A DNA stretch of 64,000 bases from Archangium violaceum (lineage in GTDB: Bacteria; Myxococcota; Myxococcia; Myxococcales; Myxococcaceae). The DNA is taken from the NCBI RefSeq assembly GCF_016887565.1, contig NZ_CP069396.1:5562001-5626000 (forward strand), written 5' to 3'. Shown piece by piece: positions 26,230 to 47,440 of the stretch. The notes under the pieces were generated by a model that saw only the letters and a list, made by a program, of their open reading frames with translations, ran no database searches and was not told the DNA's origin. Each line of letters begins with the position of its first letter. Position 1 is the first letter of the stretch. Both the position numbers and the translations under genes were made by a program.

Positions 26230-27108
26230 ATGGCTCAGAACGAGACGGTCGTCACAGTCATCTCGAAGATTTCGGAGCGGCCGGTCAATCTGGATGCGGC
26301 GCTGGTGGTGATCTACGGGCTGGACCTGGGCCGGAAGTACGAGTTGGCGAAGGAAGAGATCCTGATAGGGCGTTCGTCGAAGGCGGACATCCAGGTGGAT
26401 CAGGAGTCGATCAGCCGGAACCACGCGTGCATCACGAACACGACGAGGGGTGTGCACATCAAGGACCTCGAGTCGACGAACGGGACGTTCGTGAACGACG
26501 AGGCGGTGCAGGGGGAGAAGGCGCTGCAGAACGGGGACTTGGTGAAGATCGGGAGGACGATCTTCAAGTACATCGCGGGGGGGAACATCGAGGCGGCGTA
26601 CCACGATGAGATCTACCGGCTGACGACGATGGACGGGCTGACGCAGATCTACAACCGGAGGTACTTCGAGGAGGCGCTGGAGAGGGAGGTCTCGAGGTCG
26701 CGGAGGTACGAGCGGAGCCTGGCGCTGGTGATGTTCGACGTGGACCATTTCAAGCAGGTGAACGATCGATACGGGCACCTTGCTGGGGACTACGTGCTGA
26801 AGCAGCTGGCGTCGACGCTGAGGACGAAGATCCGGCGGGAGGACGTGTTCGCGAGGTACGGGGGAGAGGAGTTCGGGCTGTTGCTGCCGGAGATCGACGT
26901 GGCGGGGGCGGTGAAGCTGGCGGAGAAGTCGAGGAAGCTGGTGGAGAAGCAGCGGTTCGAGTTCGACAAGAACGTGATCCCTGTGACGGTCTCGCTGGGG
27001 GTGGCGGTGCTGGAGGCGGAGCACCGGGCGCCGGAGGACCTGAAGCGAGCGGCGGACGGGAAGCTGTACGAGGCGAAGGCGGCGGGCCGCAACCGCGTGT
27101 GTTCGTGA
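26230..27108 (+). CDS. FHA-domain diguanylate cyclase
   Basis: 292 residues from ATG 26230; TTG 26221 is an alternative start. FHA domain about 20-115 ([31 protein letters not shown]), then a GGDEF domain about 130-290. The active-site motif is GGEEF at 211-215, with metal residues in [12 protein letters not shown]. An RxxD inhibitory site, R202-R-E-D205, lies exactly five residues ahead of GGEEF. It should make c-di-GMP from two GTP with product inhibition, and FHA suggests recruitment to Thr-phosphorylated partners. The next gene overlaps by 4 bp. Confidence 0.93.
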
Positions 27109-27776
27109 GGGAGGGAGGCCCGGTCGAGGAGTGGCTCCTGGGCTTCGACGTGCGCGAGCTGTGGCTCGACGTGGGACGCGAGTGGCCGGAGTCCCGGCGA
27201 GGGCGGTACCTGCTCCGGGAGGACGTGAGGAAGCCGCTGGCGGTGGACACGGCGGTCTGGCCGTCGCTCTTCGGAGAGGGCCTGCCCGAGAGCGAGTACG
27301 AGCGGCTCGGGCTGCGAGAGGCCGCGCTGCCGGCCTGGAGGGGTCCGAACGCGCCGCTCTGGGATGACCTGGAGCGGATGAAGGGCTGCCTGGAGACGCT
27401 CGGAGCGGCGCGGGAAGAGCCGCACGCACTGATCGCGGTGAGCGTGTTCTGGGACGGGAGACCCGCGGAAGGAACCTGGAGCGGGGTGCCCTACCGTGAG
27501 CGGACGGAGCCATCGGTGCGAGGGGAAGGCTGGAAGCTCCTGGGCTTCGACGTCGGGGATGGCGGATTCATCAGCGGCCTTGCCAACTGCGGGTACACGG
27601 AGCCGGAGGCTCGGGAGTTCCGGAGGGACTGGGCGGAGCGCCTGAACGAGCACCACCTGCTGGGCGAGCTGGAGCAGGCGCTGGAGTTTCGGGACCTCAG
27701 TGATCGCCGCGTGCCCGAGCATGCGCCGTTCTTCGTGTGGGGCCTCTGGCTCATCGACGGGGTGGGGAGTCGCTGA
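27105..27776 (+). CDS. Hypothetical protein at the head of the RHS locus
   Basis: 223 residues from GTG 27105, overlapping the cyclase stop (GTGA). Trp-rich and acidic, soluble, no signal peptide. Its composition ([18 protein letters not shown] and similar) recalls small immunity-type proteins, but I cannot place it in a family. The DNA for its last 26 codons is repeated at 38851-38930 upstream of the second RHS unit, so this gene marks the left edge of the duplicated unit. Confidence 0.75.
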
Positions 27777-27939
27777 CGGCGCCCCATCTCGTTCTACGGA
27801 CGTGTCATCCGCGGACCGGGATGCCCCTGCCGAGGACCCACGGCATAAAGCCTTGAAGTGACGGGACGGAGCCCCTGGCCCCGAGTTTGCCATGGCGGGC
27901 GAGACCGCATTTCCGCGGACTCATCCGTCGAGGTCGTGT

Positions 27940-28293
27940 GTGCGTCGTACTGTCTGGATGCTGGTGCTCGCAGCGGGAGCATGGGCGGGCTGTGGTGCCA
28001 CGCGTGTGGAGCCTGAAGCCGCCAAGGGGGTGGTGCCGGAGCTGCTCACGGAGCACCGCGCGCTGCGAGCCGAGAAGGCGACGAAGCAGGTGGGGGAGGA
28101 CTGCACGGAGAATGGCGCCAGCGCGTGCCTGTCCGGTGTCTGCCTTCACGTGAAGCCTGGCCGGGAGGAAGGCTACGTCTGCAGCCGTGCATGTCGGGGC
28201 GAGCAGGAGTGCCCGCCCGACTGGCGCTGTGCCCAGGTGTATCCGACGCCCGAGGGCGGGCTGTGTGTCCCTCTTCTTTCTTTTCACGAGTGA
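27940..28293 (+). CDS. Small Cys-rich lipoprotein paired with RHS 1
   Basis: 117 residues from GTG 27940. Signal VRRTVWMLVLAAGAWAGC with lipobox and lipidated C18. The mature part has an acidic/basic helix and a C-terminal knot of eight cysteines (EDCTENGASACLSGVC, CSRACRGEQECPPDWRC). An upstream ATG at 27892 is in frame here but not in the second copy, where a 2-bp indel changes the frame, so the GTG common to both is preferred. Its stop lies four bases ahead of the RHS ATG. It is co-duplicated with RHS, so it is probably a partner in export or surface anchoring (inference). Confidence 0.85.
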   Translation: MRRTVWMLVLAAGAWAGCGATRVEPEAAKGVVPELLTEHRALRAEKATKQVGEDCTENGASACLSGVCLHVKPGREEGYVCSRACRGEQECPPDWRCAQVYPTPEGGLCVPLLSFHE

Positions 28294-28297
28294 GAAC

Positions 28298-31200
28298 ATG
28301 AATCATTCACATCCATTCTTGTATTGCTGGCGTTTCTTTCACAGCCGTGGCCGATGGGAGGCGGGGCTGGTGGTCCTTCTGTGGCTCGTGGGCCTGCTGG
28401 GTCCCGTGGCCTCGCATGCGGCGAGCTACGAGGTCATGCAGTTCGTGAGCGAGAGCTCCAATCCGTCCCAGTATGGGGATCTGTACAGATCCTATGCGTG
28501 TGTCTGTCCAGGCGAGGAGCTCCAAACGTGCTATGACTGTTCGAGCAAACACCCCTCCTGTCCTGGCACGACTTCCGGCAACTGCTTGCAGGAGGGCAAG
28601 ACGCAGTGTATCGGGACCGGTTCCTACAACATCCGCGACGCGCCGAAGACGAGCTACGTCAATTCCATCGATGCCTGTCCGGGGAATTCAGCGTGGGCGT
28701 GTAGACGCAATGCGGACTGCTCCGCTTGTGGCGGCGGCAAGTGCATTGGGAATGGCGTGGTGCTGTCGGTGGGTGGCGGTTCCGCCACGGTGCTGTATGG
28801 AGAAGGCTCGCACTGTGAATACCCGCAGGAGATGTGTGGGGACAAAGTCGATAACGACTGCGATGGGTTGGTGGACGAGGACTGTGGGGTCGTGGGGAGC
28901 GATGGAGGAACCGACGGAGGCTCGTCCTGCGGTGAGGAGGTCTGCGGGGACGACGTGGACAATGACTGTGACGGGGAGGTGGACGAGGATTGCGCGCCGG
29001 TCGAGCCGGATGGTGGGGCTCCGCCCACCTGCAGCGGGCCGAAATGCATGTGCGACGGCACGAACCTGTACGATCCCGTCAACATCGTCACGGGCACGAG
29101 CTACGAGCGGATCACGGATGTGGAGGTCTCCGATGAAGTGGCGACGCTGAGCTTCGAGCGGACCTTCAGCTCGCGAGGGGACGAGTGGGTGCCTGACTCG
29201 CCGCTGGTGGGAGTGCCCAAGCCGTTCGGGGCCAGCCCCGGCAACGCGGGCTCGGTGGAGTGGTGGCACAACTGGCTGAGCCTGGTGGTGGAGCATCAGC
29301 AGTACTGGAGTGTGCGGGACAGGGACGGGCAGCTGCTGCGCTTCACTCCCTGCACGGGGGTGCCGTGCCAGGCCTCCCTGACGCCGGGAACGCCCAGCCA
29401 CCATGAGCGCCTGTGGCGGACGGCCTCGGGCTATGAGCTGGTGCGGGCGGATGGGTCCCGGCTCGTCTTCGAGGGGCGCTTCGTGGCGGCGCCGGGTGGG
29501 CGCAACCGCTACTTCCTCTCGCGCGTCGTGTCCTCGACGGGGGTGGACCAGGCGTTGCTCACCTATGCGACACCGCCCGTGGGGGGTTGTCCCCAGGGGG
29601 CGTCCGGGAGCAGCCCGGGAGTGCCCTATCTGTCATCCGTGCGGACGGCGGCGGGGCGCATGTTCAGCCTCAGCTACCGCGCGCTGAGGCGAGCGGACGG
29701 GGCACTCGAGTGCGTCATCGCCGCGGTGAACCTGGGCGGTGCGGTGACGGACGGGGGCATCGGTGAGCCCGAGGTCCAGTACACCTATGCGGGCAATGGC
29801 GACGAGCGGCCCGGGCGTATCGCCAACGCCCGGTATCGTTCGCGACTGGATGAGTATCTGTACACGTCGGGAGAGTTCCGGCGCTCGCAGACGGGGGTGG
29901 AGCTCGTCCGGCACACCTACGGAGCGGACAGGCGGGTGGGGTCGGTGGAAGCGGAGGGGCATGCCGTGTCCATCTCCTGGGACCCGACGGTGGGCAGTTG
30001 CCAGCCGGGCTCCAACTGCTGCGGCAGGCAGCCCCAGGTGAGACAGGCGACGGACTACGGGGTGGGGCGAGGAGATGGAACAGAGGGCTCGGCCTTTCTG
30101 TCATCCACCTACGAGACGCTCTCCAACTATGGACAGCAGATGGCCCCGCGCCTGTACCAGACGACGGAGTCCTGCACGCCTGGCGAGGCATGCAGCCCTG
30201 GCTCGGAGCGCACGGAGTGGGCGTGCTCGTCGGCCGGCACGCCTGGCCATGAGGCGGCGCGCAAGGACAAGCGGGACAACTGGGAGGTGTATGGCTACTC
30301 GCTGCCCACGGACACGCAGCCACGTCTGGAGCGGACCAGCGTGAAGCGAGGGGCCTCGGACATGCTCGGCACGGGAGCGCTGGAGGAGCAGACCTTCAGC
30401 TACACCTACGGTCCCAATGGAGAGCAGTTGCCGCGGGCCACGGAGGAGCGGAGCGTGTTGGGGGGCTCGGGGGCCCGCCGCCGCACGTTGAACGTGTACG
30501 AGGCTGGTGGAAACCGGAGGAAGGCCGTCATCGAGACGGGCTGGACCCGGGAACGCGCTGGCGATGGCACCTGGACGACGAAGCCCCGCCTCGTGGGGAC
30601 GTTCTCCTTCACCTCGCATGTGTCCTTGGGGGCGACGACGCCAGACCCACTGGGCCGGACGATGGAAGTGCACGGACCCTGCACCGTCACGCGCGAGGAC
30701 GCCACGGATTGCGAGCTGTCCGATTACCCACTGACACGCTACTCCTACCATCCCAATAACAGCACGGTGGGAGTGAATGAGCGCAACCGGCTGGCGATGG
30801 TGGAAGTCTACCCGACCCGTACCACCACGAAAACCTTGACGACGCTGTTCAGCGCCTACGACAAGCGCGGGCACGTCACGAAGACGACGGATCCAAACGG
30901 GCTGTTGACCACCCTCACCTATGACGAGGATCGGCTGACGAGCAAGCGGGTGGAAAGCCAGCCGTTCACCTACTACTTCTACGCGGATGGCAAGCACCTG
31001 ACCGCCGTGCAATCCCCTTCAATGGGTGTCGAGGTGTTCTGCTACCGGATGGGCACGACGGGCGAGACCTGTACGGGAGGGAAGCTGACGGACAAGGTCC
31101 AGTGGAAGGCGAAGGCGGCGCGTACGGACGGCACCGGGTGGACGGAGAGGGTGGTGTATGCGTACTGGCCGGACGGGACGCTGAAGGAGGAGCGCTACCT

Positions 31201-34200
31201 GTCGAAGACGGGAACGACGGTGGAGACGCGGCGGGTGTTGAAGTACGCGGTGGACGCGCACCGCAGGCCCACGTGGCAGAAGTGGGGCGAGGGAGGGGGG
31301 AGCTTCAGCTCGGCGAAGTCCTTCGATGGAGCGGACAACCTCACGGGTGTGGGACTGCCCTTCAACGAGCCGCCCGCCTGGTGCGGAGGCGTGAGGCGGG
31401 GTGTGAGCCCGGAGGTGGACGGGACGCCCCTGTCCCAGCTGTGCTCCTCGATGGCATATGACAGGGCCAACCGGCTGGTGCAGGTGGACGAGTACCCGGC
31501 GGAGGGACTGGCCCAGCGTACGCTGTTCCAGTACGACGCTCAGGGCAACGTGTCTGGAGTGAAGACAGGATGCATGGCCACGGACAGCTTCGACACCTGT
31601 GGCCAGCCGGCCGCGACGTATACGTACGATGATTTCGGCAAGGTGGTGGAGGTCTCTCTTCCGCACGCGGATGGCCCGGTGCGCTACGCGTACGATGCGC
31701 TGGGCAACACGGTGGTGAAGGAGACGGAGGCCATGCGTCAGGCCGGCGAGTACCTCGCCTTCACCTACGACATGCTCTCCCGTTTGAAGACGGCGGAACG
31801 TCACTACTCCCGCCCTTCGGTGGGAATCGATGTCCTGTACCGCCTTGTCTATGACGCGGAGGGGGGAGGCACTCCAAGCGGGTGCAAGAACCCGGTGAAT
31901 ACGAAGGGCCGGGTGCGCTACCGGGAAGACTCCTTCGGGAAGACCTGGTACCAGTATGACCAGGAGGGTCGCGTCGTTCTCGAGTTCGGTGTGCGGGCGG
32001 GCACGTCGACGTGTGGCATCGTGGCCAACGCCAATCCGACGACGGCCTACAGTTATAAGCCCGGCGGCAATCTTGCCTCGGTGACGTATCCGAATGGCCG
32101 TACGGTGACATACGTGTATGGATCGGGCGGCAACGCCGACCGGGTTGTGTCCGTCGGGATGACGCTGCATGACGGTACGGAGTGGAAGCCGGGTAGCGTG
32201 CTGTTGAGCGACGTCACCTGGGAGCCGTACGGCGGGCTGCGTGGCTACACGATGAACCATCCCACGACAAACACGCAGAGCAGGGTGGAGTACGCGCTGG
32301 GAGACGATGGCTCCGTGGCGCCCGCGGGCTGCTCGACGGCCATGCCGTCCGCGGCGAGCTCGGACCTGACGGGCCGGCTGCGCAGCCTGCGCGTCACTTC
32401 GCCCCTGGAGGGCGGGGGGAACAAGAACATCTACCAGCGCACGTACACGTGGAAGGCGGACCAGGTGGTGCGTACCGACACGTGCCTGCTGGGAGAGACG
32501 ACGCCGAAGACGGAAACGTACAGCTATGACAGGACGCTGCGGCTGACGGGAGCGGGCCGGCCGGCGGGCAACTTCGACGCCACGGGTGGTGCCTTCGACT
32601 CACGTACCTACGGGTACGATGGCCGAGGCAACCGCACCTCCATGAGCAGCGACGGCGTTGCCTACGCGCTGAGCTACGCGGCCTCGCCTCGAGGGGACAG
32701 ACTGACGGGCTGGAACTCTTCGACGACGGGGAGCCTCCTGGGGTACTCGCTGGCGTATGATGTGGATGGGCGCGTGACCCGGAAGGAGGGGGCCCGGAAG
32801 ATGGATGGGCAGCCGACGCACGTGATGAGCTTCGCGTACGGCCCATCGGTGGGAGTGGCCACGGAGACGGTCTTCCGGGCGGTGAATGTGAATGGAGGCT
32901 TCTACAACTACTACTACGACGCGAAGGGGCGTCGCCGGGCGAAGGTCTACCCGGGAGGAGCTTCGGACGAGTACTTCCACGACGTGGGGAACCAGTTGCT
33001 GGTGGACCGGGGGAGCAGCGGCACCACTCCGCCGGTGGAGCACTACACGCAGGACGACTACGTGTGGCTGGACGGGCGCCCGGTGGCGATGGTGCGCGGC
33101 AAGCTGAGCAACACGTGGACGCGGCTGTCGGACACCTCGGCGGACTGTTCGCGCAACGGTGAGGCCGCGACGTGTGGGGTGTACTTCCCGGTGACGGACC
33201 ACATCGGCAAGCCCGTGTTGATGCTGGATGGCAGCGGCCGTGTCGCGGGGACGGCGGACTACGATCCCTTCGGCCAGGTCAACCGGGTGGCGCTGAACGC
33301 GGAGACGGAGCACCCGCTCAACGCTACGGGTAGCGCCTCTACGCTGGCGGAACTGAGGCAGCCCACGGATGCGTCGGTGACGGTGAAGATGCGGACGCTC
33401 TTCCACCTACTCGACACGAAGGGAGTGGGTTACGTCGAGCTGGTCGACGGAAACAACGGAACGAGGCTGGCGGGCCCTTACGATAGAACCGGGCAGGGGC
33501 TTGTATGGTCGGATTGGGCACAGCCTTCAACGGGACATGCCAATGTGATGATTACTCGTTACGGCACGGCTGATTCTTCCTCCGCGTCCGGAGTGGTACT
33601 GGAAGGGTACGAGTATCAGCGCTACCAAACGGGGGCTCAGCCCTTCTGGACGCCGCTGCGATTCCCTGGACAGTACTACGACGTGGAGACGGGTCTGTTC
33701 GAAAATTGGAACCGCTATTACGCTCCGAGCATCGGCGGGTATTTACAACCAGAGCCGATGCTAATTGTGAGAGCGGACAGACTCCCTGTCTATTCATACG
33801 CCGAAGGCAATCCGTTGAGCAGTGTTGATCCTGATGGACTGTTCAGGCGTAAGTTCTCTGATGTGGAGTGCCCCAATTGGAAGTATGCACTGGCGAAGGC
33901 GCGAGGAAAAGCGCGCTGTGGCACTGGTTACTCGGAGAATCGCAGTGATGGGAATTGTGCCTGCCAGAAGATCGTTCCATGCGATGTGTGTGTTTTTCTA
34001 AACGAAATCAGTCCTCAAGATACATTCATTGATGATATGGGACCGATATTTTTCAGGAATGGGGAATTGATCTCGGAAGGAGTTTATGCTGTTACGACAT
34101 TTGAGTCTGGTCTTGAGGCTGATGCTCCAATAGTGCGGTGGGGTAGGATTGCTCATCTCAAGATTAATAGCGGCTTGTGCTTCGACGAGCGATTGATTGA

Positions 34201-34324
34201 CGAATTCGCTCTCACGCTGATTCATGAGGCTTCTCATATGTGCAGGGCAATCACCCTTCGGGCTAGATTGGATGAGTTGCTTCCTGGGCGGCATTTTCAG
34301 GATATTGAGAATGCTTGTCGTTGA
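28298..34324 (+). CDS. RHS polymorphic toxin 1, HEASH-type C-terminal tip
   Basis: 2,008 residues. Signal peptide (to about residue 40), then a Cys-rich region with two Cu-binding MopE-like motifs (CGDKVDNDCDGLVDEDC at 180-196; CGDDVDNDCDGEVDEDC at 216-232). A DUF6531-like entry (DPVNIVTGTSYERI) opens a long series of YD/RHS repeats. The RHS core ends with FPGQYYDVETGLFENWNRYY and DPDG (33827-33838). The variable tip, 161 residues from 33839, contains LTLIHEASHMC (H1976, E1977, H1980), a zinc-peptidase motif, and several cysteines. The tip DNA is visibly more AT-rich than the cage, as expected for a swapped-in toxin. The candidate immunity gene is 34431. Confidence 0.9.
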   Translation: MNHSHPFLYCWRFFHSRGRWEAGLVVLLWLVGLLGPVASHAASYEVMQFVSESSNPSQYGDLYRSYACVCPGEELQTCYDCSSKHPSCPGTTSGNCLQEGKTQCIGTGSYNIRDAPKTSYVNSIDACPGNSAWACRRNADCSACGGGKCIGNGVVLSVGGGSATVLYGEGSHCEYPQEMCGDKVDNDCDGLVDEDCGVVGSDGGTDGGSSCGEEVCGDDVDNDCDGEVDEDCAPVEPDGGAPPTCSGPKCMCDGTNLYDPVNIVTGTSYERITDVEVSDEVATLSFERTFSSRGDEWVPDSPLVGVPKPFGASPGNAGSVEWWHNWLSLVVEHQQYWSVRDRDGQLLRFTPCTGVPCQASLTPGTPSHHERLWRTASGYELVRADGSRLVFEGRFVAAPGGRNRYFLSRVVSSTGVDQALLTYATPPVGGCPQGASGSSPGVPYLSSVRTAAGRMFSLSYRALRRADGALECVIAAVNLGGAVTDGGIGEPEVQYTYAGNGDERPGRIANARYRSRLDEYLYTSGEFRRSQTGVELVRHTYGADRRVGSVEAEGHAVSISWDPTVGSCQPGSNCCGRQPQVRQATDYGVGRGDGTEGSAFLSSTYETLSNYGQQMAPRLYQTTESCTPGEACSPGSERTEWACSSAGTPGHEAARKDKRDNWEVYGYSLPTDTQPRLERTSVKRGASDMLGTGALEEQTFSYTYGPNGEQLPRATEERSVLGGSGARRRTLNVYEAGGNRRKAVIETGWTRERAGDGTWTTKPRLVGTFSFTSHVSLGATTPDPLGRTMEVHGPCTVTREDATDCELSDYPLTRYSYHPNNSTVGVNERNRLAMVEVYPTRTTTKTLTTLFSAYDKRGHVTKTTDPNGLLTTLTYDEDRLTSKRVESQPFTYYFYADGKHLTAVQSPSMGVEVFCYRMGTTGETCTGGKLTDKVQWKAKAARTDGTGWTERVVYAYWPDGTLKEERYLSKTGTTVETRRVLKYAVDAHRRPTWQKWGEGGGSFSSAKSFDGADNLTGVGLPFNEPPAWCGGVRRGVSPEVDGTPLSQLCSSMAYDRANRLVQVDEYPAEGLAQRTLFQYDAQGNVSGVKTGCMATDSFDTCGQPAATYTYDDFGKVVEVSLPHADGPVRYAYDALGNTVVKETEAMRQAGEYLAFTYDMLSRLKTAERHYSRPSVGIDVLYRLVYDAEGGGTPSGCKNPVNTKGRVRYREDSFGKTWYQYDQEGRVVLEFGVRAGTSTCGIVANANPTTAYSYKPGGNLASVTYPNGRTVTYVYGSGGNADRVVSVGMTLHDGTEWKPGSVLLSDVTWEPYGGLRGYTMNHPTTNTQSRVEYALGDDGSVAPAGCSTAMPSAASSDLTGRLRSLRVTSPLEGGGNKNIYQRTYTWKADQVVRTDTCLLGETTPKTETYSYDRTLRLTGAGRPAGNFDATGGAFDSRTYGYDGRGNRTSMSSDGVAYALSYAASPRGDRLTGWNSSTTGSLLGYSLAYDVDGRVTRKEGARKMDGQPTHVMSFAYGPSVGVATETVFRAVNVNGGFYNYYYDAKGRRRAKVYPGGASDEYFHDVGNQLLVDRGSSGTTPPVEHYTQDDYVWLDGRPVAMVRGKLSNTWTRLSDTSADCSRNGEAATCGVYFPVTDHIGKPVLMLDGSGRVAGTADYDPFGQVNRVALNAETEHPLNATGSASTLAELRQPTDASVTVKMRTLFHLLDTKGVGYVELVDGNNGTRLAGPYDRTGQGLVWSDWAQPSTGHANVMITRYGTADSSSASGVVLEGYEYQRYQTGAQPFWTPLRFPGQYYDVETGLFENWNRYYAPSIGGYLQPEPMLIVRADRLPVYSYAEGNPLSSVDPDGLFRRKFSDVECPNWKYALAKARGKARCGTGYSENRSDGNCACQKIVPCDVCVFLNEISPQDTFIDDMGPIFFRNGELISEGVYAVTTFESGLEADAPIVRWGRIAHLKINSGLCFDERLIDEFALTLIHEASHMCRAITLRARLDELLPGRHFQDIENACR
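32104..33031 (+). repeat. Identical tract shared by the two RHS genes (copy 1)
   Basis: Reading line by line against 43254-44181 (offset 11,150), I found no mismatch over about 928 bp. Substitutions occur immediately on both sides (for example TAC versus CAA before it, GCCGGTGGAG versus GTCGGTGGCG after it). This is the signature of recent gene conversion. Confidence 0.85.
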
Positions 34325-34430: not shown

Positions 34431-35066
34431 ATGTTTCTTCAATTGAGAAAAACGACGTTACTGTGTTGTTTTTTTGTTTTGCATTTTACTTCTTGTCGCT
34501 CGGGGAAGGAGCAGTTTTCGCCGTGTCAGGTGGTGGATGGGGGATTGAAGGATGGGCGAGCTTCGTGCGAGGTGTATGCGGCGTTGATTGCGTATGGGGG
34601 GCAGGAATTTTCAAAGGCTGTTGTGTTGAATGAGACGATCACGTTGGGTGGATTTGATCGATCGAGGGTCGGCTCCGTTGATGGACGTGCTCTTGAAGAT
34701 ATGTGTTCTCGCAGTTTGGGTTCGGTGCGCGCCAACGCCGCTTTGATTCACTCGTTATGTCAGTCGAGTGGGGCGGGCGTCCCACTCAGTGATGTTTTTC
34801 CCCCATCGAATGGACCTCATTTGGTTCCGGTTGATAGAATTTGGTCTCGCGATGGTGATGGTGGGCTCGTTGCGAGAGCTGCTGGCGATTTAAGTGTCTA
34901 CGTGGTGTTTTCAAAGGTAGCCTTCGACGAGCAAAAAAGAAGTGCTGTTGTTTATATGGGATATCATTGTGGTCCTCGCTGTGGAGAGGGGTGTTTGTTT
35001 TCAGTTGAGAGAACCAAGGACGGCTGGAAGAATGTTGGTTGCGTCTGGAGAGGCTGGGAGAGCTGA
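34431..35066 (+). CDS. Candidate lipoprotein immunity protein for RHS 1
   Basis: 211 residues. Lipoprotein signal MFLQLRKTTLLCCFFVLHFTSC with lipobox FTSC. The mature region has about eight cysteines and no known domain. It is AT-rich like the RHS 1 tip and lies 106 bp downstream on the same strand. Position, composition and periplasmic targeting fit an immunity protein that blocks a toxin acting outside the cytoplasm (inference). Not conserved after RHS 2, as expected for tip-specific immunity. Confidence 0.7.
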   Translation: MFLQLRKTTLLCCFFVLHFTSCRSGKEQFSPCQVVDGGLKDGRASCEVYAALIAYGGQEFSKAVVLNETITLGGFDRSRVGSVDGRALEDMCSRSLGSVRANAALIHSLCQSSGAGVPLSDVFPPSNGPHLVPVDRIWSRDGDGGLVARAAGDLSVYVVFSKVAFDEQKRSAVVYMGYHCGPRCGEGCLFSVERTKDGWKNVGCVWRGWES

Positions 35067-35550: not shown

Positions 35551-37227
35551 TCAGGTCGTCGCGGGCGAGGCAGAGGGAGCCCGTGCGGCGGCCTCGCGCG
35601 AGGCCTTCCACATGGGCGGCAGCAGTTCCTCGAGTCGGCGCTGCGGCCAGCCCTGGGCGAGATTCTCCAGCACGTCGGCCAGGTATGCCCACGGGTCCAC
35701 GCCAGCCAGCACGCAGGTGGCCACCAGCGTGTACACGCACGCGGCGCGTTCAGCTCCCGCGTCACTGCCGGCGAACAGGTAGTTCTTCCTGCCGACGGCA
35801 ATCTCCCGCAGCCGTAGCTCCGAAGCGTTGTTGTGCAATGGCAGCCGTGCGTCTTCCAGGAAGCGCATCAGCGGTTTCCACTGGTTGATGGCATAGCGGC
35901 ACGCCTGGGCCAGTGGACTCTTCGGCGGCTCCGCGTTGTAGGTGTTGGCCACCCAGCGCCCCAGTTGCTCGGTATTGGGACGTGAGAGCGTGTCTCGCCT
36001 GCGCAACCGCTCGGCGTCGTCTACCCGCGACTCACTGGCTTCGCGCTCCACCTCGAAGAGCCGGCCGATGAGCGAGAGCGGCAGCGCCGCCCGCGTGTCG
36101 CCGGCTTCCAACGCCTCGACGAAGTAGCGCCGGCAGTGGCTCCAGCACCCCACCTCCACCGCGGTGGCACCCTCGCGAGTGAAGAGCTTGTCGTAGCCCT
36201 TGTACCCGTCCACCAGCAGCCAGCCGGTGCGCTCGTCCAGGAAGGACGGCGGCCCCTCCTGCTTCCAGTCCGGCGTGTAGACGAAGGCCGCCCAGGTGCT
36301 GTCCCCCAGGTATACCCACATGTGCCCGCGCTTGAGTCCGTTGGGATGCTCCCTGTCGAGCACCTTCAGGTGCGTGTCGTCGCTCTGCATCACGTGCGAG
36401 GCCAGCGCCCTCTGGCCCACCTCCTGCGCCAGCGGCTGGAGGAGGTCGGCCCCCGCCGCCACCCAATCCGAGAGCGTCGAGGTGCGCAGCTGCACGCCGT
36501 GGCGCGCATAGATTCCGCTCAGCCGGTGCAGCGGCAGGGAGTTTTTGAATTTGGACACCAACACGTGGGCCACCAGGCCCGGCCCTGGCAAGCCCCCCTC
36601 AATCACCCTGTCGGCGGGCGGTGCCACCACCAGTCCGTCACCACACGGCCGGCAGGCATACTTGGGACGTACCTCCTCAATCACCTTGAAGTGGCCGGGC
36701 ACCCACTCCAGCGTCTCGCTCTTCTCCTCGCCACAGCGCGTCTTGTCCCGCCCGCACGCCTCGCACCGCAGCGCCTCGGGCGGAGGCTGGTGGACGCGCT
36801 GCTCACGCGGCAAGTGGGAGGGCAGCGGGCGGCGCCCGTGTCCCTTGCGCTCCTTCTTTCGCGACTCCTTGTTGGGCGGCTCGGACGGGGGTGGGGCGCC
36901 CTGCGCGACGCCAGCGTCCCCGGCACCAGGCGTCGCCGCCTGCGTCTGCTGGGCACTGGCGTCCTCCTGCCCCAGCTGTGTCAGAAACAGCGAGAGTTGC
37001 TCGGCCGATAGTTTCTCGCTGGTGCGGCCAAACCGCTGGCGCATCGCCTTGAGCAGGCGCAGCTCCAACTCGGCGTTCTTCTCCACCAACTGCGTGAGAA
37101 GGCCCACCACCAGCTCAATGGCCTGCTCCTCCTGGCCCTCGGCCAGCAGCCCCCGCAGCAGCGCCGCCACTCCGTGCACGTCCGTCCTCTTCTTGCCGGG
37201 GGCCTCGCCGCTCATGACGCGCGACAT
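35551..37227 (-). CDS. tnpC: IS66-family transposase TnpC
   Basis: 558 residues. Coiled N-terminus and the IS66 leader MRQRFGRTSEKLSAEQLSLF, a linker rich in Ala/Pro/Lys, a four-Cys motif region (LRCEACGRDKTRCGEEKSE), then the DDE nuclease: MQSDDTHLKVLD, GWLLVDGYKGYDKLF, VGCWSHCRRYFVEAL. The C-terminal IS66 block ENLAQGWPQRRLEELLP is present. Full length with no frameshift seen, so it may be active. It follows the fused tnpAB gene by 36 bp. Confidence 0.93.
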   Translation of the reverse strand: MSRVMSGEAPGKKRTDVHGVAALLRGLLAEGQEEQAIELVVGLLTQLVEKNAELELRLLKAMRQRFGRTSEKLSAEQLSLFLTQLGQEDASAQQTQAATPGAGDAGVAQGAPPPSEPPNKESRKKERKGHGRRPLPSHLPREQRVHQPPPEALRCEACGRDKTRCGEEKSETLEWVPGHFKVIEEVRPKYACRPCGDGLVVAPPADRVIEGGLPGPGLVAHVLVSKFKNSLPLHRLSGIYARHGVQLRTSTLSDWVAAGADLLQPLAQEVGQRALASHVMQSDDTHLKVLDREHPNGLKRGHMWVYLGDSTWAAFVYTPDWKQEGPPSFLDERTGWLLVDGYKGYDKLFTREGATAVEVGCWSHCRRYFVEALEAGDTRAALPLSLIGRLFEVEREASESRVDDAERLRRRDTLSRPNTEQLGRWVANTYNAEPPKSPLAQACRYAINQWKPLMRFLEDARLPLHNNASELRLREIAVGRKNYLFAGSDAGAERAACVYTLVATCVLAGVDPWAYLADVLENLAQGWPQRRLEELLPPMWKASREAAARAPSASPATT

Positions 37228-39092: not shown

Positions 39093-39446
39093 GTGCGTCG
39101 TACTGTCTGGATGCTGGTGCTCGCAGCGGGAGTATGGGCGGGCTGTGGTGCCACGCGTGTGGAGCCTGAAGCCGCCAAGGGGGTGGTACCGGAGCTCCTC
39201 ACGGAGCACCGCGCGCTGCGGGCCGAGAAGGCGATGAAGCAGGTGGGGGAGGACTGCACGGAGAATGGCGCCAGCGCGTGCCTGTCCGGTGTCTGCCTTC
39301 ACGTGAAGCCTGGCCGGGAGGAAGGCTACGTCTGCAGCCGTGCATGTCGGGGCGAGCAGGAGTGCCCGCCCGACTGGCGCTGTGCCCAGGTGTATCCGAC
39401 GCCCGAGGGCGGGCTGTGTGTCCCTCTTCTTTCTTTTCACGAGTGA
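39093..39446 (+). CDS. Small Cys-rich lipoprotein paired with RHS 2
   Basis: 117 residues, differing from the first copy at only a few positions (for example KAMKQ for KATKQ, GVWAG for GAWAG). Same lipobox and eight-Cys C-terminus. The 2-bp indel upstream breaks the frame of the longer N-terminus seen in copy 1 and fixes the start at GTG 39093 or later. Again separated by four bases from the RHS ATG. Confidence 0.87.
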   Translation: MRRTVWMLVLAAGVWAGCGATRVEPEAAKGVVPELLTEHRALRAEKAMKQVGEDCTENGASACLSGVCLHVKPGREEGYVCSRACRGEQECPPDWRCAQVYPTPEGGLCVPLLSFHE

Positions 39447-39450
39447 GAAC

Positions 39451-42400
39451 ATGAATCATTCACATCCATTCTTGTATTGCTGGCGTTTCTTTCACAGCCG
39501 TGGCCGATGGGGGCTGGGGGTCTTCCTGTGGCTCGTGGGGCTGTTGGGTCCCGTGGCCGCGTATGCCGCGGCGAGCTACGAGATCCTGCATTTCGTGAGT
39601 GTGAGCAGCAATCCGTCCCAGTATGGGGATTTGTACAGATCCTATGCGTGTGTCTGTCCAGGGGAGGAGCCCCAGAAGTGCTACAACTGTTCGAGTCGAT
39701 ACCCCACATGCCCTAATCAGACGTCCAACAACTGTTTGTTGGAGGGCGAGTCGCAGTGTGTCGGGACCGGTTCCTACAACATCCGCGACAAGCCGAGGAC
39801 GACCTATGTCAATACCCTCGACGCATGCCCGGGGAATCCGACGTGGACGTGTAGACGCGATGCGGACTGCAATGCTTGTAGCGGCGGCAGATGCGTTGGG
39901 AATGCCGTGGTGCTGTCATTGGGCGGCGGTTCGGCCGAGGTGCTGAGGGGAGAGGGCACGCACTGTGAATACCCGCCGGAGATGTGTTGGGACAAAGTCG
40001 ACAACAACTGCAATGGGCTGGTGGACGAGGGCTGTGGGGTCGTGGGGAGCGATGGAGGAACCGACGGAGGCTCGTCCTGCGGTGAGGAACTCTGCGGGGA
40101 CGACGTGGACAACGACTGTGACGGGGAGGTGGACGAGGATTGCGCGCCGGTCGAGCCGGATGGTGGGGCTCCGCCTTCCTGCAGCGGGCCGAAATGCAGG
40201 TGCGACGGCACGAACCTGTACGATCCGGTCAACATCGTCACGGGCACGAGCTACGAGCGGATCACGGATGTGGAACTCTCCGATGAAGTGGCGACGCTGA
40301 GCTTCGAGAGGACCTTCAGCTCGCGGGGGGACGAGTGGGTGCACGACTCGCCGCTGGTGGGAGTGCCCAAGCCGTTCGGGGCCAGCCCCGGCAACGCGGG
40401 CTCGGTGGAGTGGTGGCACAACTGGCTGAGCCTGGTGGTGGAGCACCAGCAGCACTGGAGTGTGCGGGACAGGGACGGACGGCTGCTGCGCTTCACTCCC
40501 TGCGCGGGGGTTCCGTGCCAGGCCTCCCTGACGGAGGGGACGCCCAGCCACCATGAGCGCTTGTGGCGGACGGCCTCGGGCTACGAACTGGTGCAGGCGG
40601 ATGGGTCCCGGCTCGTCTTCGAGGGGCGCTTCGTGGCAGCGCCGGGTGGGCGCAACCGCTACTTCCTCTCGCGCGTCGTGTCCTCGACGGGGGTGGACCA
40701 GGTGTTGCTCTCCTATGCGGTGCCGCCGGTGGGGGGCTGTCCCCAGGGGGCGTCCGGGAGCAGCCCGGGAGTGCCCTATCTGTCATCCGTGCGGACGGCG
40801 GCGGGGCGCATGTTCAGCCTCGGCTACCGCGCGCTGAGGCGAGCGGACGGGGCACTCGAGTGCGTCATCACCTCGGTGAACCTGGGCGGTGCGGTGACGG
40901 ACGGGGGCGTTGGAGAGCCCGAGGTCCAGTTCACGTATGCGGGCAATGGGGACGAGCGGCCCGGGCGTATCGCCAACGCCCGGTATCGCTACCGGCTGGA
41001 CGAGTACCTGTATACGTCGGGAGAGTTCCGGCGCTCGCAGACGGGGGTGGAGCTCGTCCGGCACACTTACGGCGCGGACAGGCGGGTGGGGTCGGTGGAA
41101 GCGGAGGGGCATGCCGTGTCCATCTCCTGGGATCCGACGGTGGGCAGTTGCCAGCCGGGCTCCAACTGCTGCGGCAGGCAGCCCCAGGTGAGACAGGCGA
41201 CGGACTACGGGGTGGGGCGAGGAGATGGAACGGAAGGCTCGGCCTTTCTGTCATCCACCTACGAGACGCTCTCCAACTATGGACAGCAGATGGCCCCGCG
41301 CCTGTACCAGACGACGGAGTCCTGCACGCCTGGCGAGGCATGCAGCCCCGGCTCGGAGCGCACGGAGTGGGCGTGCTCGTCGGCCGGCACGCCTGGCCAT
41401 GAGGCGGCGCGCAAGGACAAGCGGGACAACTGGGAGGTGTATGGCTACTCGCTGCCCACGGACACGCAGCCACGTCTGGAGCGGACCAGCGTGAAGCGTG
41501 GCGCCTCGGACATGCTCGGTACGGGAGCGCTGGAGGAGCAGACCTTCAGCTATACCTACGGTTCCAATGGAGAGCAGTTGCCACGGACCCTCGAGGAGCG
41601 GAGCGTGTTGGGGGGCTCGGGAGCCCGCCGGCGCACGTTGAACGTGTACGAGACTGGCACCCACCGGAGGAAGGCCGTCATCGAGACGGGCTGGACCCGG
41701 GAACGCGCCAGCGATGGCACCTGGACGACGAAGCCCCGCCTCGTGGGGACGTTCTCCTTCACCTCGCATGTGTCCCTGGGGGTGACGACGCCAGACCTGC
41801 TGGGCCGGACGATGGAAGTCCACGGACCGTGCACCGTCACGCGCGAGGACGCCACGGATTGCGAGCTGCCCGACTACCCGCTGACCCGATATTCCTACCA
41901 CGCTAATAGCAGCACGGTGGGAGTGAATGAGCGCAACCGGCTGGCGATGGTGGAGGTCTATCCGACCCGCACCACCACGAAGCCGCTGAAGACACTGTTC
42001 AGCGAGTACGACAAGCGCGGGCACGTCACGAAGACGACGGATCCGAACGGGGTGTTGACCACCCTCACCTACGAGGAGGATCGGCTGACCGAGAAGGAGG
42101 TGGGTGGCCAGCCGAGTACCTATTACTACTACGCGGATGGCCAGCATCTGACCGCCATGCGGTACCCCTCGGAGGGTGCCGAGGTGTTCTGCTACCGGAA
42201 GGGCACGACGGGAGAGACCTGTCGGGGAGGGACGCTGACGGACAAGGTGCAGTGGAAGGCGAAGGCGACGCTCATGGATGGCACCGGGTGGACGGAGAAG
42301 GTGGTGTATGCGTATTGGCCGGACGGGACGCTGAAGGAGGAGCGCTACCTGTCGAGGACGGGCACGACGGTGGAGACGCGGCGGGTGTTGAAGTACGCGG

Positions 42401-45400
42401 CGGACGCGCACCGCAGGCCCACATGGCAGAAGTGGGGCGAGGGGGCGGGGAGCTTCAGCTCGGCGAAGTCCTTCGATGGAGCGGACAACCTGACGGGCGT
42501 GGGGCTGCCCTTCAACGATCCGCCCGCCTGGTGTGGAGGAGTGAGGCGGGGCGTCAGCCCGGAACTGAACGGGACGCCACTGTCGCAGCTGTGCTCCTCG
42601 ATGGCGTATGACAGAGCCAACCGGCTGGTGCAGGTGGACGAGTACCCGGCGGAGGGAGTGGCCCAGCGCACGCTGTTCCAGTACGACACTCAGGGCAACG
42701 TGTCTGGAGTGAAGACGGGATGCATGGCCACGGACAGCTTCGACACCTGCGGCCAGCCGGCCGCGACGTATACGTACGATGATTTCGGCAAGGTAGTGGA
42801 GGTCTCCCTGCCGCACGCGGATGGCCCGGTGCGCTACGCGTACGATGCGCTGGGCAACACGGTGGTGAAGGAGACGGAGGCCATGCGCCAGGCCGGCGAG
42901 TACCTCGCATTCACCTACGACATGCTCTCCCGGTTGAAGACGGCGGAACGCCACTACTCCCAGCCGTCGGTGGGGATCGCTGTCCTGTACCGCCTGGGCT
43001 ATGACGAGGACGGGGGAAACACTCCAGGCGGGTGCAAGAGCACGGTGAATACGAAGGGCCGGGTGCGCTACCGGGAAGACTCCTTCGGGAAGACCTGGTA
43101 CCAGTATGACGATGAGGGTCGCGTCGTTCTCGAGTTCGGAGTGAGGGCGGGCACGTCGGTCTGTGGTGCCGTGGCCAACGCCAATCCGACGACGGCCTAC
43201 GGTTATACGCCTAACGGCAATCTTGCCTCGGTGACGTATCCGAACGGCCGCAAGGTGACATACGTGTATGGATCGGGCGGCAACGCCGACCGGGTTGTGT
43301 CCGTCGGGATGACGCTGCATGACGGTACGGAGTGGAAGCCGGGTAGCGTGCTGTTGAGCGACGTCACCTGGGAGCCGTACGGCGGGCTGCGTGGCTACAC
43401 GATGAACCATCCCACGACAAACACGCAGAGCAGGGTGGAGTACGCGCTGGGAGACGATGGCTCCGTGGCGCCCGCGGGCTGCTCGACGGCCATGCCGTCC
43501 GCGGCGAGCTCGGACCTGACGGGCCGGCTGCGCAGCCTGCGCGTCACTTCGCCCCTGGAGGGCGGGGGGAACAAGAACATCTACCAGCGCACGTACACGT
43601 GGAAGGCGGACCAGGTGGTGCGTACCGACACGTGCCTGCTGGGAGAGACGACGCCGAAGACGGAAACGTACAGCTATGACAGGACGCTGCGGCTGACGGG
43701 AGCGGGCCGGCCGGCGGGCAACTTCGACGCCACGGGTGGTGCCTTCGACTCACGTACCTACGGGTACGATGGCCGAGGCAACCGCACCTCCATGAGCAGC
43801 GACGGCGTTGCCTACGCGCTGAGCTACGCGGCCTCGCCTCGAGGGGACAGACTGACGGGCTGGAACTCTTCGACGACGGGGAGCCTCCTGGGGTACTCGC
43901 TGGCGTATGATGTGGATGGGCGCGTGACCCGGAAGGAGGGGGCCCGGAAGATGGATGGGCAGCCGACGCACGTGATGAGCTTCGCGTACGGCCCATCGGT
44001 GGGAGTGGCCACGGAGACGGTCTTCCGGGCGGTGAATGTGAATGGAGGCTTCTACAACTACTACTACGACGCGAAGGGGCGTCGCCGGGCGAAGGTCTAC
44101 CCGGGAGGAGCTTCGGACGAGTACTTCCACGACGTGGGGAACCAGTTGCTGGTGGACCGGGGGAGCAGCGGCACCACTCCGTCGGTGGCGCACTACACGC
44201 AGGACGACTACGTGTGGCTGGATGGGCGCCCGGTGGCGATGGTGCGCGGCAAGCTGAGCAACACGTGGACGCGGCTGTCGGACACCTCGGAGGACTGCTC
44301 GCGCAACGGTGAGGCCGTGGCGTGTGGAGTGTACTTCCCGGTGACGGACCACATCGGCAAGCCCGTGTTGATGCTGGACGGAAGCGGCCGTGTTGCGGGG
44401 ACGGCGGACTACGATCCCTTTGGCCAGGTCAACCGGGTGGCGCTGAACGCGGAGACGGAGCACCCGCTCAACACCACAGGGAGCGCCGCTACGCTAGCGG
44501 AACTGAGGCAGCCCACGAGTACGTCCGTGACGGTGAAGATGCGGACTCTCTTCCACCTGCTGGACACGAAGGGGGTGGGCTATGTCGAGCTGGTCGACGG
44601 AAACAACGGAATGAGACTGGCGGGCCCTTACGATAGAACCGGGCAGGGGCTTGTATGGTCGGACTGGGCACAGCCGTCCACAGGACACGCCAACGTGATA
44701 CTTGCCCGGTACGGCACGGCTGGCGCTTCCTCCGCGTCCGGTGTGGTGCTGGAAGGGTACGAGTACCAGCGCTACCAGACGGGGGCACAGCCCTTCTGGA
44801 CGCCGCTGCGCTTCCCAGGACAGTACTACGATGCGGAGACAGACCTGTTTGAGAATTGGAACCGCTACTATGATCCGAGCGTTGGAAGATACCTGCAGCC
44901 TGAGCCGTTGTTGGCTTCCCCTGGCTATATGCTGAGCATGGTAGAGAGTGGGCTTGGCACCCCAGCTTACGGCTACGCTGCTGGAAATCCCATTGCCTTT
45001 GCCGATCCTGATGGACGGGAGTTGGTGGTACACCCGATGACAAGGCTACTATTCCCGTCAGCGAAGGTTGCAATGCTGGAGAGTGCTATTTCAATGGTCA
45101 ACAATGACGGGTTCGGAAGATGTAACTGCGCGCTGACCGCCGGTGGAGGTTTTTCGTCAAGACCATGGGACAACAAGCTCGTGTTTGTTTTACTCGATCC
45201 AACATTGAGATACCTCGGCGCAATCGGCATGGCACCGCCAATGCCGATGTTCGCGGGCAGGATTCAGTTCATGGCCATTGACCCGAATCTACCATTGGAG
45301 GTGATGGCATCAACAATTGCTCATGAAGGGGGACACTACAGGTTCCCATGGTTGGGGCACCGATTCCAAAGCCAGGAGCGCTTCGAGCGGCCGGAAGCTC

Positions 45401-45474
45401 ATTGCGGCGACGCGGCATACAGGGGGTTGCCACCTGCGCTCGAACACGGAGGAGCTGGATGCCCATGCGATTGA
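39451..45474 (+). CDS. RHS polymorphic toxin 2, HEGGH-type C-terminal tip
   Basis: 2,007 residues, co-linear with RHS 1: signal peptide, Cys-rich region, MopE-like motifs (the first is degenerate: CWDKVDNNCNGLVDEGC), DUF6531-like entry, YD repeats and core ending DPDG at 45004-45015. The 152-residue tip from 45016 is unrelated to tip 1 apart from a zinc-peptidase motif STIAHEGGHYRF (H1958, E1959, H1962). A Cys/His-rich C-terminus follows (EAHCGDAAYRG, GGAGCPCD). The gene overlaps the next by 16 bp, the usual toxin-immunity coupling. Confidence 0.9.
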   Translation: MNHSHPFLYCWRFFHSRGRWGLGVFLWLVGLLGPVAAYAAASYEILHFVSVSSNPSQYGDLYRSYACVCPGEEPQKCYNCSSRYPTCPNQTSNNCLLEGESQCVGTGSYNIRDKPRTTYVNTLDACPGNPTWTCRRDADCNACSGGRCVGNAVVLSLGGGSAEVLRGEGTHCEYPPEMCWDKVDNNCNGLVDEGCGVVGSDGGTDGGSSCGEELCGDDVDNDCDGEVDEDCAPVEPDGGAPPSCSGPKCRCDGTNLYDPVNIVTGTSYERITDVELSDEVATLSFERTFSSRGDEWVHDSPLVGVPKPFGASPGNAGSVEWWHNWLSLVVEHQQHWSVRDRDGRLLRFTPCAGVPCQASLTEGTPSHHERLWRTASGYELVQADGSRLVFEGRFVAAPGGRNRYFLSRVVSSTGVDQVLLSYAVPPVGGCPQGASGSSPGVPYLSSVRTAAGRMFSLGYRALRRADGALECVITSVNLGGAVTDGGVGEPEVQFTYAGNGDERPGRIANARYRYRLDEYLYTSGEFRRSQTGVELVRHTYGADRRVGSVEAEGHAVSISWDPTVGSCQPGSNCCGRQPQVRQATDYGVGRGDGTEGSAFLSSTYETLSNYGQQMAPRLYQTTESCTPGEACSPGSERTEWACSSAGTPGHEAARKDKRDNWEVYGYSLPTDTQPRLERTSVKRGASDMLGTGALEEQTFSYTYGSNGEQLPRTLEERSVLGGSGARRRTLNVYETGTHRRKAVIETGWTRERASDGTWTTKPRLVGTFSFTSHVSLGVTTPDLLGRTMEVHGPCTVTREDATDCELPDYPLTRYSYHANSSTVGVNERNRLAMVEVYPTRTTTKPLKTLFSEYDKRGHVTKTTDPNGVLTTLTYEEDRLTEKEVGGQPSTYYYYADGQHLTAMRYPSEGAEVFCYRKGTTGETCRGGTLTDKVQWKAKATLMDGTGWTEKVVYAYWPDGTLKEERYLSRTGTTVETRRVLKYAADAHRRPTWQKWGEGAGSFSSAKSFDGADNLTGVGLPFNDPPAWCGGVRRGVSPELNGTPLSQLCSSMAYDRANRLVQVDEYPAEGVAQRTLFQYDTQGNVSGVKTGCMATDSFDTCGQPAATYTYDDFGKVVEVSLPHADGPVRYAYDALGNTVVKETEAMRQAGEYLAFTYDMLSRLKTAERHYSQPSVGIAVLYRLGYDEDGGNTPGGCKSTVNTKGRVRYREDSFGKTWYQYDDEGRVVLEFGVRAGTSVCGAVANANPTTAYGYTPNGNLASVTYPNGRKVTYVYGSGGNADRVVSVGMTLHDGTEWKPGSVLLSDVTWEPYGGLRGYTMNHPTTNTQSRVEYALGDDGSVAPAGCSTAMPSAASSDLTGRLRSLRVTSPLEGGGNKNIYQRTYTWKADQVVRTDTCLLGETTPKTETYSYDRTLRLTGAGRPAGNFDATGGAFDSRTYGYDGRGNRTSMSSDGVAYALSYAASPRGDRLTGWNSSTTGSLLGYSLAYDVDGRVTRKEGARKMDGQPTHVMSFAYGPSVGVATETVFRAVNVNGGFYNYYYDAKGRRRAKVYPGGASDEYFHDVGNQLLVDRGSSGTTPSVAHYTQDDYVWLDGRPVAMVRGKLSNTWTRLSDTSEDCSRNGEAVACGVYFPVTDHIGKPVLMLDGSGRVAGTADYDPFGQVNRVALNAETEHPLNTTGSAATLAELRQPTSTSVTVKMRTLFHLLDTKGVGYVELVDGNNGMRLAGPYDRTGQGLVWSDWAQPSTGHANVILARYGTAGASSASGVVLEGYEYQRYQTGAQPFWTPLRFPGQYYDAETDLFENWNRYYDPSVGRYLQPEPLLASPGYMLSMVESGLGTPAYGYAAGNPIAFADPDGRELVVHPMTRLLFPSAKVAMLESAISMVNNDGFGRCNCALTAGGGFSSRPWDNKLVFVLLDPTLRYLGAIGMAPPMPMFAGRIQFMAIDPNLPLEVMASTIAHEGGHYRFPWLGHRFQSQERFERPEAHCGDAAYRGLPPALEHGGAGCPCD
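43254..44181 (+). repeat. Identical tract shared by the two RHS genes (copy 2)
   Basis: Counterpart of 32104-33031. It covers the repeats just ahead of the core, a likely recombination platform for exchange between the genes. Confidence 0.85.
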
Positions 45475-45848
45475 TATCACACAGTCGGATCTTGCTCGTT
45501 GTGGTTGGTTCCGCGATATTGTTGATGGCAATATTTGTGTGGTCAGAGGGGCAATGGTTTGATGCGAAGGCGAATCAAAGGATGCGGCTGGTAGCCTCGG
45601 CCGTTGCTGAATTCCGGCGGGCGAAAGGCATTTGGCCTGGGAACATAGAGGAAATGGTGCCGCCCAGATGTGTTGGTGCCGGTTGCATGCAGGGAACGGT
45701 GCCACGCGACCAGTGGGGGCGAGTGTTGGTGCTGAGCGAAGACGCAGGATGTATCTCGCTTCGCTCGTTGGGGCGTGATGGTGTCGCAGAAACTGATGAC
45801 GATCGAGTCGTCTTGGTCGAATCGTCATGTCCTTCGAACGGGCGCTGA
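45459..45848 (+). CDS. Candidate membrane-anchored immunity protein for RHS 2
   Basis: 129 residues from ATG 45459, preceded by GGAGGAG and overlapping the RHS 2 stop; ATG 45465 is an alternative. One N-terminal helix (ILLVVVGSAILLMAIFVW), then an extracytoplasmic domain with NIEEMVPPRCVGAGCMQGTV and DQWGRVLVLS...LGRDGVAETDDDR. The latter recalls the DPWG and LGADG blocks of GspG-type pseudopilins; this may be fold mimicry only. Location and coupling fit immunity to a toxin acting in the periplasm (inference). Confidence 0.7.
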   Translation: MPMRLISHSRILLVVVGSAILLMAIFVWSEGQWFDAKANQRMRLVASAVAEFRRAKGIWPGNIEEMVPPRCVGAGCMQGTVPRDQWGRVLVLSEDAGCISLRSLGRDGVAETDDDRVVLVESSCPSNGR

Positions 45849-46555: not shown

Positions 46556-47440
46556 CGGGGACAGCGGACTACGATCCCTTCGGCCAGCTCAACCGGGTGG
46601 CGCTGAATGCGGAGACGGAGCACCCGCTCAACACTACGGGTAGCGCCTCTACGCTGGCGGAACTGCGGCAGCCCACGGATGCGTCGATGCCGGTGAAGAT
46701 GCGGACGCTCTTCCACCTGCTGGACACGACGGGAGTGGGTTACATCGAACTGGTCGACGGAAACAACGGAACGAGATTGGCGGGCCCTTACGATAGAACC
46801 GGGCAGGAGCGTGTCTGGTCGGATTGGGCACAGCTGTCCGCAGGACACGCCAACGTGATGCTTACGCTACTACGACCCCGGCGTCGGCATGTACTTGCAG
46901 CCGGAGCCGTTGCTACAGGAGCCGGAAGCTGCAAAGGCTGTGATGCTACGTGGGCAACTCATGCCTGCATATGCGTACGCCTTCAACAATCCCCTTCGTT
47001 TTTGGGATCCAGACGGGCTGCTTCCATTCGATGGCGCGAGCACTGATAGATACCTGGACGCTCAGATGCAGATAACTCGGGCATGCCAGGCGGGAGATCA
47101 AGCGAGTTGTAATTTCCTGGCGGGACAAGTAGCGGTCGGAACGTTCACGGCTGCATGGTTCTCGCTCCCTCTAGCCTCATCAGATTTGCTTGTACCGTTG
47201 TTTTCTCCTATAGCTTCCAAGGCGAGCGATGTTTGCGCGAACATCTCTTCGAACATTTCCGATTATTGGTTTCGCTTTGATCGTACTGGCCACTGGAAAA
47301 ATAATGGTGAATGGCGGAGCGGGCCTCATTTTCATTTTGATCCGTATCCGTATAGCAAAGAGCTAATGAAGTGGCATCTGCCATACCAGGCACGACAGTG
47401 GTGGTATAATTTTTGGTCGAAGTGGCGTAGATTTGAATAG
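46556..47440 (+). pseudogene. Orphan RHS 3' fragment with third toxin tip
   Basis: Homology to the RHS core starts abruptly at GGGGACAGCGGACTACG and runs to about 46865. About 160 bp are then missing relative to RHS 2 (the segment through FPGQYYD...NWN), shifting the frame. The second frame resumes at YYDPGVGMYLQPEPLL and continues through DPDG (47006-47017) into an intact 140-residue tip ending at TAG 47438-47440. Near its end, GPHFHFDPYPYSKELMKWHL has a His-rich pattern of a possible metal nuclease, but the family is not recognised. There is no signal peptide or start, so it is silent unless recombined into an RHS cage. Confidence 0.85.

Follow-up and report, generated by a model that had tools for sequence, protein, structure and literature searches.

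What does a small lipoprotein gene do directly in front of an Rhs toxin gene? The question is raised by a 64,000-nucleotide stretch of the Archangium violaceum genome (hereafter the window), in which such a gene pair occurs twice. The initial annotation took its survival through duplication as a sign that the lipoprotein is a functional partner of the Rhs protein, acting as an outer-membrane anchor, an export factor or a chaperone. Below, the pair is described in the window, followed across the order Myxococcales, and set against the roles that the lipoprotein might have.

The duplicated pair in the window

The first lipoprotein gene (27940..28293, + strand; GTG start at 27940, TGA at 28291-28293) encodes 117 residues, consisting of the signal peptide MRRTVWMLVLAAGAWAG, the lipobox cysteine C18 (preceded by WAG), a linker of ~36 residues with a VLTEHR-like motif, and a cysteine-rich domain at residues ~52-111. 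Of its nine cysteines one is C18, leaving exactly the eight that had been annotated. The Trp at position -3 of the WAGC lipobox is unusual, relatives having LVAC, LAGC, VLAC and the like, and where this gene starts with GTG, close relatives such as that of locus L039 have a homologous ATG start. Four bases separate the stop codon from the Rhs ATG at 28298, and the same gap recurs in the second copy (39093..39446, + strand; Rhs ATG at 39451), whose lipoprotein is identical at 115 of 117 residues; the reported spacing thus holds for both copies. The leader of copy 1 (27777..27939, + strand) is likewise kept in both, matching at 150 of 160 nucleotides, as had been claimed.

Self-comparison of the window resolves the duplication into a single contiguous repeat, 27697-33730 against 38851-44880, with 93.7% DNA identity. 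Besides the leader, the block includes the final ~80 bp of an ORF lying upstream (27099-27776), the copy of that tail being a remnant at 38850-38912, and it ends downstream at the point where the toxin tips diverge. Among the pieces compared, the lipoprotein gene is the best preserved (349/354 nucleotides, against 150/160 for the leader and 668/757 for the Rhs N-terminal region), its differences being three synonymous and two nonsynonymous changes; selection or local gene conversion could explain this high identity. The 13.2-Mb single-contig genome contains each gene in full only twice, the one further piece being an Rhs fragment at 46556-46865. An IS66-family transposase gene (35551..37227, - strand) lies between the two copies and is possibly tied to the duplication.

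The Rhs protein of copy 1 (28298..34324, + strand; 2008 residues) has a cleavable-type signal, a Cys-rich region, two MopE-like metal motifs that fall below the Pfam cut-off, and YD repeats, with a core that ends at residue ~1848 and is followed by a polymorphic tip containing LIHEASHM; that of copy 2 (39451..45474, + strand) carries a different tip, with TIAHEGGHY. Matches to PF05593 and TIGR03696, the YD repeats, the core and the differing C-termini identify both as Rhs polymorphic toxins, and family scans of the window Rhs proteins gave neither an NHL nor a PAAR match, nor do they have a lipobox. The two tips (33890-34324, + strand, with an HExxH-like motif, and ~44995-45474) contain zinc-peptidase-like motifs and have no Pfam match. 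By its position downstream of the toxin, the gene at 34431..35066 (+ strand) is a candidate immunity gene of copy 1, with an N-terminus that resembles a lipoprotein signal (VLHFTSC); its counterpart in copy 2 (45348..45848, + strand) has one hydrophobic N-terminal segment, and its real start probably lies inside the ORF. That both candidates look exported, by lipobox or transmembrane segment, suggests an envelope target. A third, truncated core fragment (46556..46865, + strand; 90-92% nucleotide identity) leads into an orphan tip at ~46889-47440, the whole of 46556-47440 having the form of a typical Rhs cassette remnant. Also downstream of copy 2 are a direct repeat of ~310 bp with 81% identity (46075-46384 and 48041-48350), perhaps duplicated immunity genes, and a tandem direct repeat of 126 bp at 51063-51289, with 86% identity and an offset of ~100 bp.

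Because the two tips are unrelated while the lipoproteins beside them differ by two residues, the toxin tip is not involved in the pairing, and a tip-specific immunity role of the lipoprotein is rejected on the same ground.

Linkage and co-inheritance across Myxococcales

Alignment of 62 members of the lipoprotein family gives the cysteine frame C-X7-C-X4-C-X12-C-X3-C-X5-C-X5-C-X11-C (median spacings), with only the lipobox cysteine, the eight cysteines and Met1 invariant or nearly so; the linker bears a VLxEHR motif, and the residue after the lipobox cysteine is Asp in 3 of 78 members. Searches against Pfam and NCBIfam matched no family, although one member reached WAP at E 0.0098. An AlphaFold model predicts a compact domain at residues ~50-110 (pLDDT ~90) behind a low-confidence tether; the model found nothing below E 2 with Foldseek against the PDB, and a PDB sequence search with the lipoprotein nothing below E 0.26.

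Matches to the lipoprotein occurred in 71 of the 145 genomes of the order that were searched, the weakest being domain-level matches within larger proteins. A first-tier set of 82 loci was assembled from 80 fetched around matches and the two window copies, representing the A. violaceum genome itself and 50+ Myxococcales species. Rhs lies directly downstream on the same strand in 78 of these 82; three of the remaining loci (L063, L064 and L116) stop at contig ends within 800 bp of the lipoprotein, leaving L044 as a true orphan. Loci beyond the first tier agree with this arrangement, and the pairing spans more than 50 species and persists down to ~35% lipoprotein identity. The Rhs start overlaps the lipoprotein stop by four bases in, for example, L085, L086, L089, L095, L096, L110, L111 and L114, a sign of coupled translation. 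The window lipoproteins share both features by which the 8-Cys Rhs-associated family is defined here, the cysteine frame and the same-strand Rhs gene directly downstream.

Linkage is equally tight from the other side. When residues ~255-840 of the Rhs protein were used as the query, 53 genomes were found to contain this Rhs class and all 53 contain the lipoprotein. Of the Rhs places inspected that had no listed lipoprotein, L126, L128, L129 and L131-L133 are contig ends, L130 does carry the lipoprotein, and L127 is a 5'-truncated Rhs; every class member with an intact 5' end has the lipoprotein, the exceptions being that truncated copy and an Rhs whose lipoprotein has decayed. The latter belongs to a tandem pair of Rhs copies in genome G111 (contig C2; L195, L098), where one lipoprotein is intact and the other interrupted by four stops, and where one partner may serve two Rhs proteins. 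Genome G072 (L044, L198) has a lone family lipoprotein with no Rhs nearby, reflecting either Rhs loss or an independent role. On this evidence, lipoprotein and Rhs make up a two-gene module that has been conserved.

Domains of this kind are also found in remote relatives from other Myxococcota and in larger lipoproteins, among them a 647-residue multi-domain protein (L135:2750-4693, - strand) whose gene adjoins a second lipoprotein gene. Similar ORFs of ~610-650 residues with several copies of the domain occur in other genomes, pointing to a broader family of disulfide domains in Myxococcota, as yet unnamed. Neither remote domain relatives outside the order (L186-L188) nor larger proteins (L189, L191) have an adjacent Rhs gene, so that the linkage belongs to the single-domain lipoprotein, on this comparison the Rhs-dedicated form, and not to every 8-Cys domain. 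A profile search of frames longer than 700 residues in fetched loci found no case of the domain fused into an Rhs chain.

The two partners have also been inherited together. Distances between lipoproteins and between Rhs cores correlate across 67 pairs (Mantel r 0.80, the best of 2000 permutations reaching 0.19), and between two genomes that both contain more than one pair, the lipoprotein and its Rhs pointed to the same counterpart 188 times in 246 comparisons, where chance would give ~45%. Neighbouring genes with a common history also give a signal of this type, which demonstrates that the partners travel together, rather than that they touch.

These results bear on the simplest alternative, that the lipoprotein gene is a passenger duplicated with Rhs and functionally unlinked to it. 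The window repeat would fit such a history, being one contiguous block that even includes a meaningless 80-bp gene tail, and so would the orphan lipoprotein of G072. For the same reason the argument that the pair was kept intact through duplication proves little, and a two-copy tandem duplication by itself is weak evidence of function. It is the pairing across the order that makes the evidence strong: linkage over more than 50 species to ~35% identity, with invariant cysteines and lipobox and with matched trees, largely refutes the passenger reading, to which we give almost no weight. That the lipoprotein might be missing beside most homologous Rhs genes, or found chiefly elsewhere, had been named beforehand as grounds for refuting the proposal, and the survey favoured pairing instead. 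Thus, of the original claim, the functional partnership is strongly supported by a nearly complete two-way linkage, matched trees and, at several loci, overlapping start and stop codons, and the reasoning from duplication alone adds little.

Possible roles: anchoring, export and others

Which part of the Rhs protein the lipoprotein goes with is narrowed by natural variation. Five Rhs proteins (L086, L089, L091, L095 and L096) lack everything before residue ~568 of the reference protein P0003, and still lie 81-103 bp behind a lipoprotein gene; the N-terminal regions of the remaining partners are very diverse, many of them Cys-rich. Because the pairing survives loss of the N-terminal ~567 residues, the common dependence is most likely on the YD shell and core or on export itself, and the Cys-rich, MopE-like N-terminal region is unlikely to be the sole binding site.

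Partner Rhs proteins have Sec-type signals and almost never a lipobox. A comparison set of about 40 other Rhs ORFs from 15 genomes (L134 and L146-L185) includes none with the 8-Cys lipoprotein upstream, and about half of these ORFs have no signal and look T6SS-type or truncated. With signals called by a heuristic and not by SignalP, and with L153 excluded because the frame picked was not the Rhs, a lipobox was assigned by rule to 6 of 73 partner Rhs proteins and 8 of 22 other exported ones (Fisher p 0.003). Five of the six partner calls look false, the cysteine lying inside or after a cleavable signal, and manual curation, a judgement-based count, gives 1 of 73 against 10 of 22 (p 6e-7). The self-lipidated proteins (L146, L155, L159, L160, L173, L176, L178, L180, L181 and L183) occur in the same species as a separate anchoring class. 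A separate lipoprotein could therefore supply the lipid that partner Rhs proteins lack, but exported Rhs proteins with neither lipobox nor partner also exist (L134, L163, L169, L172, L179 and L182), so a missing lipid anchor does not by itself require a partner. One of these, L134 (G000:C1:6950000-6968000), is an Rhs-repeat protein of the A. violaceum genome itself, with a 3926-residue frame and a type-I-like signal. Exported Rhs proteins of myxobacteria thus fall into self-lipidated, partner-lipoprotein and unpartnered classes.

Some lineages may have a third component. A gene for an exported protein of ~280 residues occupies the 600-900 bp between lipoprotein and Rhs in about nine loci (L049, L052, L056, L059, L061, L065, L079, L104 and L113), and in L052 this protein matches PD40 (E 1e-14) and resembles TolB, making a PD40/TolB-like propeller a possible member of the system. 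With a propeller gene placed between them, an envelope complex is favoured over a lone tether.

The best reading of these observations, to which we assign a probability of roughly 0.5, is that a dedicated outer-membrane lipoprotein anchors or presents the Sec-exported Rhs protein in trans. Sec would take both proteins across the inner membrane. After lipidation at C18 the lipoprotein would be transported to the outer membrane, and would then consist of a flexible tether of ~36 residues and a compact disulfide-rich domain whose eight cysteines presumably form four disulfides. This domain would dock the Rhs protein, itself without a lipid anchor, at the shell or core and not at the variable N-terminal region, and the docked toxin would be held or presented at the outer membrane until contact-dependent delivery. 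Counting further against anchoring, a pure anchor need not adjoin its client so strictly, and the window lipoboxes have Trp at -3.

Strict co-inheritance of the two genes would also suit an export factor, a lipoprotein needed for Rhs to cross the outer membrane, either by itself as an oligomer or together with a general outer-membrane machine. The analogy is with Neisseria, where secretion of MafB needs the oligomeric outer-membrane lipoprotein MafA (PMC7738311) and where gene order and signal types are the same, an upstream lipoprotein and a Sec type-I toxin; the PD40/TolB-like gene of about nine loci also suggests a larger envelope complex. The mature lipoprotein, however, has only ~100 residues, a small disulfide domain on a disordered tether, its predicted structure contains neither a barrel nor a long amphipathic helix, and MafA is a ~34-kDa protein unrelated by family search. 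Export, though the main rival, is a clearly weaker candidate than anchoring. A periplasmic holding or maturation factor, keeping the shell closed, aiding N-terminal disulfides or guarding the producer from its own toxin, would suit the many partners with Cys-rich N-terminal regions and a lipoprotein that is not matched to any one tip but might act on the shell. Yet Rhs proteins without the Cys-rich region remain paired, and the lipoprotein has no thioredoxin-like or known chaperone domain, so that such a role is improbable. Small disulfide-rich domains are often binding modules, and the lipoprotein might instead bind neighbouring cells, or let the Rhs protein pass from cell to cell by outer-membrane exchange as SitA does; TraAB moves outer-membrane lipoproteins in myxobacteria and SitA toxins exploit it (PMC5562445). 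This role is more doubtful still. Among the three roles first proposed, then, the outer-membrane anchor is the best supported, the export factor keeps some probability through the MafA precedent, and the chaperone is less likely. Adjacency points to an unrecognised accessory part of the Rhs system, one whose task is probably to retain the toxin on the outer membrane or display it there.

Relation to known toxin systems

Small dedicated partners encoded beside Rhs genes are familiar from the type VI secretion system, in which EagR is cytoplasmic and acts with PAAR-Rhs proteins. The 8-Cys lipoprotein differs in being exported and Cys-rich, with an Rhs protein that has a signal peptide, and membership among the EagR chaperones was rejected, the lipoprotein giving no EagR/DUF1795 match and the Rhs no PAAR match. 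In the SitB-SitA-SitI system of Myxococcus, too, an accessory gene immediately precedes the polymorphic toxin and raises its delivery, but there the toxin SitA is the lipoprotein and SitB has the type I signal (PMC5562445), the reverse of the arrangement here, and SitB is often missing from sitA loci, whereas the 8-Cys lipoprotein is almost never missing; the reversed signals and the family scans exclude it from the SitB family. Comparable features are found in the teneurin-like proteins of Myxococcota, which are exported polymorphic toxins built on a YD shell, are followed by immunity genes, and are predicted to be tethered to the membrane by lipid. Gram-negative members, however, are predicted to be self-lipidated by an SPII signal (PMC13018210), a contrast with the module here, whose putative lipid anchor is encoded apart from the toxin. 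The kin-discrimination toxins Rhs4 and Rhs5 of M. xanthus are very large, signal-bearing and T6SS-independent (PMC10433427), but have ~4000 residues, lie on Mx-alpha prophages, and have no reported lipoprotein partner. For the very large myxobacterial Rhs class, a field review describes recognition as unknown and delivery only as "apparent" (PMC10047993). A dedicated partner in practically all members of one Rhs class provides one small gene through which the question of exit and retention becomes directly testable.

No lipoprotein partner for an Rhs toxin was found in the open-access literature, in agreement with the initial annotation, the known MafA-MafB pair being non-Rhs (PMC7738311). The module is thus of a known kind, a lipoprotein partner of an exported polymorphic toxin, whose 8-Cys family, link to Rhs and near-universality in its class are undescribed in the literature searched. 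In this closest precedent, MafA is an outer-membrane lipoprotein encoded upstream of MafB and was first suggested to anchor it (PMC3482391); an early test in N. cinerea found that it was not needed (PMC4287609), and later work showed that MafB secretion depends on it (PMC7738311). In both systems an outer-membrane lipoprotein gene, here a predicted one, stands immediately upstream of a Sec-exported polymorphic toxin, the partner is specific to the toxin, and orphan tip cassettes lie downstream. The likeness, an upstream lipoprotein with a Sec type-I-like polymorphic toxin, is one of working plan only: MafA is oligomeric and, at ~34 kDa, three times the size of the lipoprotein here, MafB has DUF1020 and no Rhs repeats, and Pfam and NCBIfam scans matched neither a MafA family nor DUF1020 (PF06255) in the lipoprotein or the Rhs protein. 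We tentatively suggest, as one of the less likely possibilities, that an undescribed lipoprotein-dependent two-partner system for Rhs export and display is built around the 8-Cys lipoprotein, joined in some lineages by the PD40 propeller, as the Rhs counterpart of MafA-MafB; if so, it would answer how signal-bearing Rhs giants cross the Gram-negative outer membrane and stay on it.
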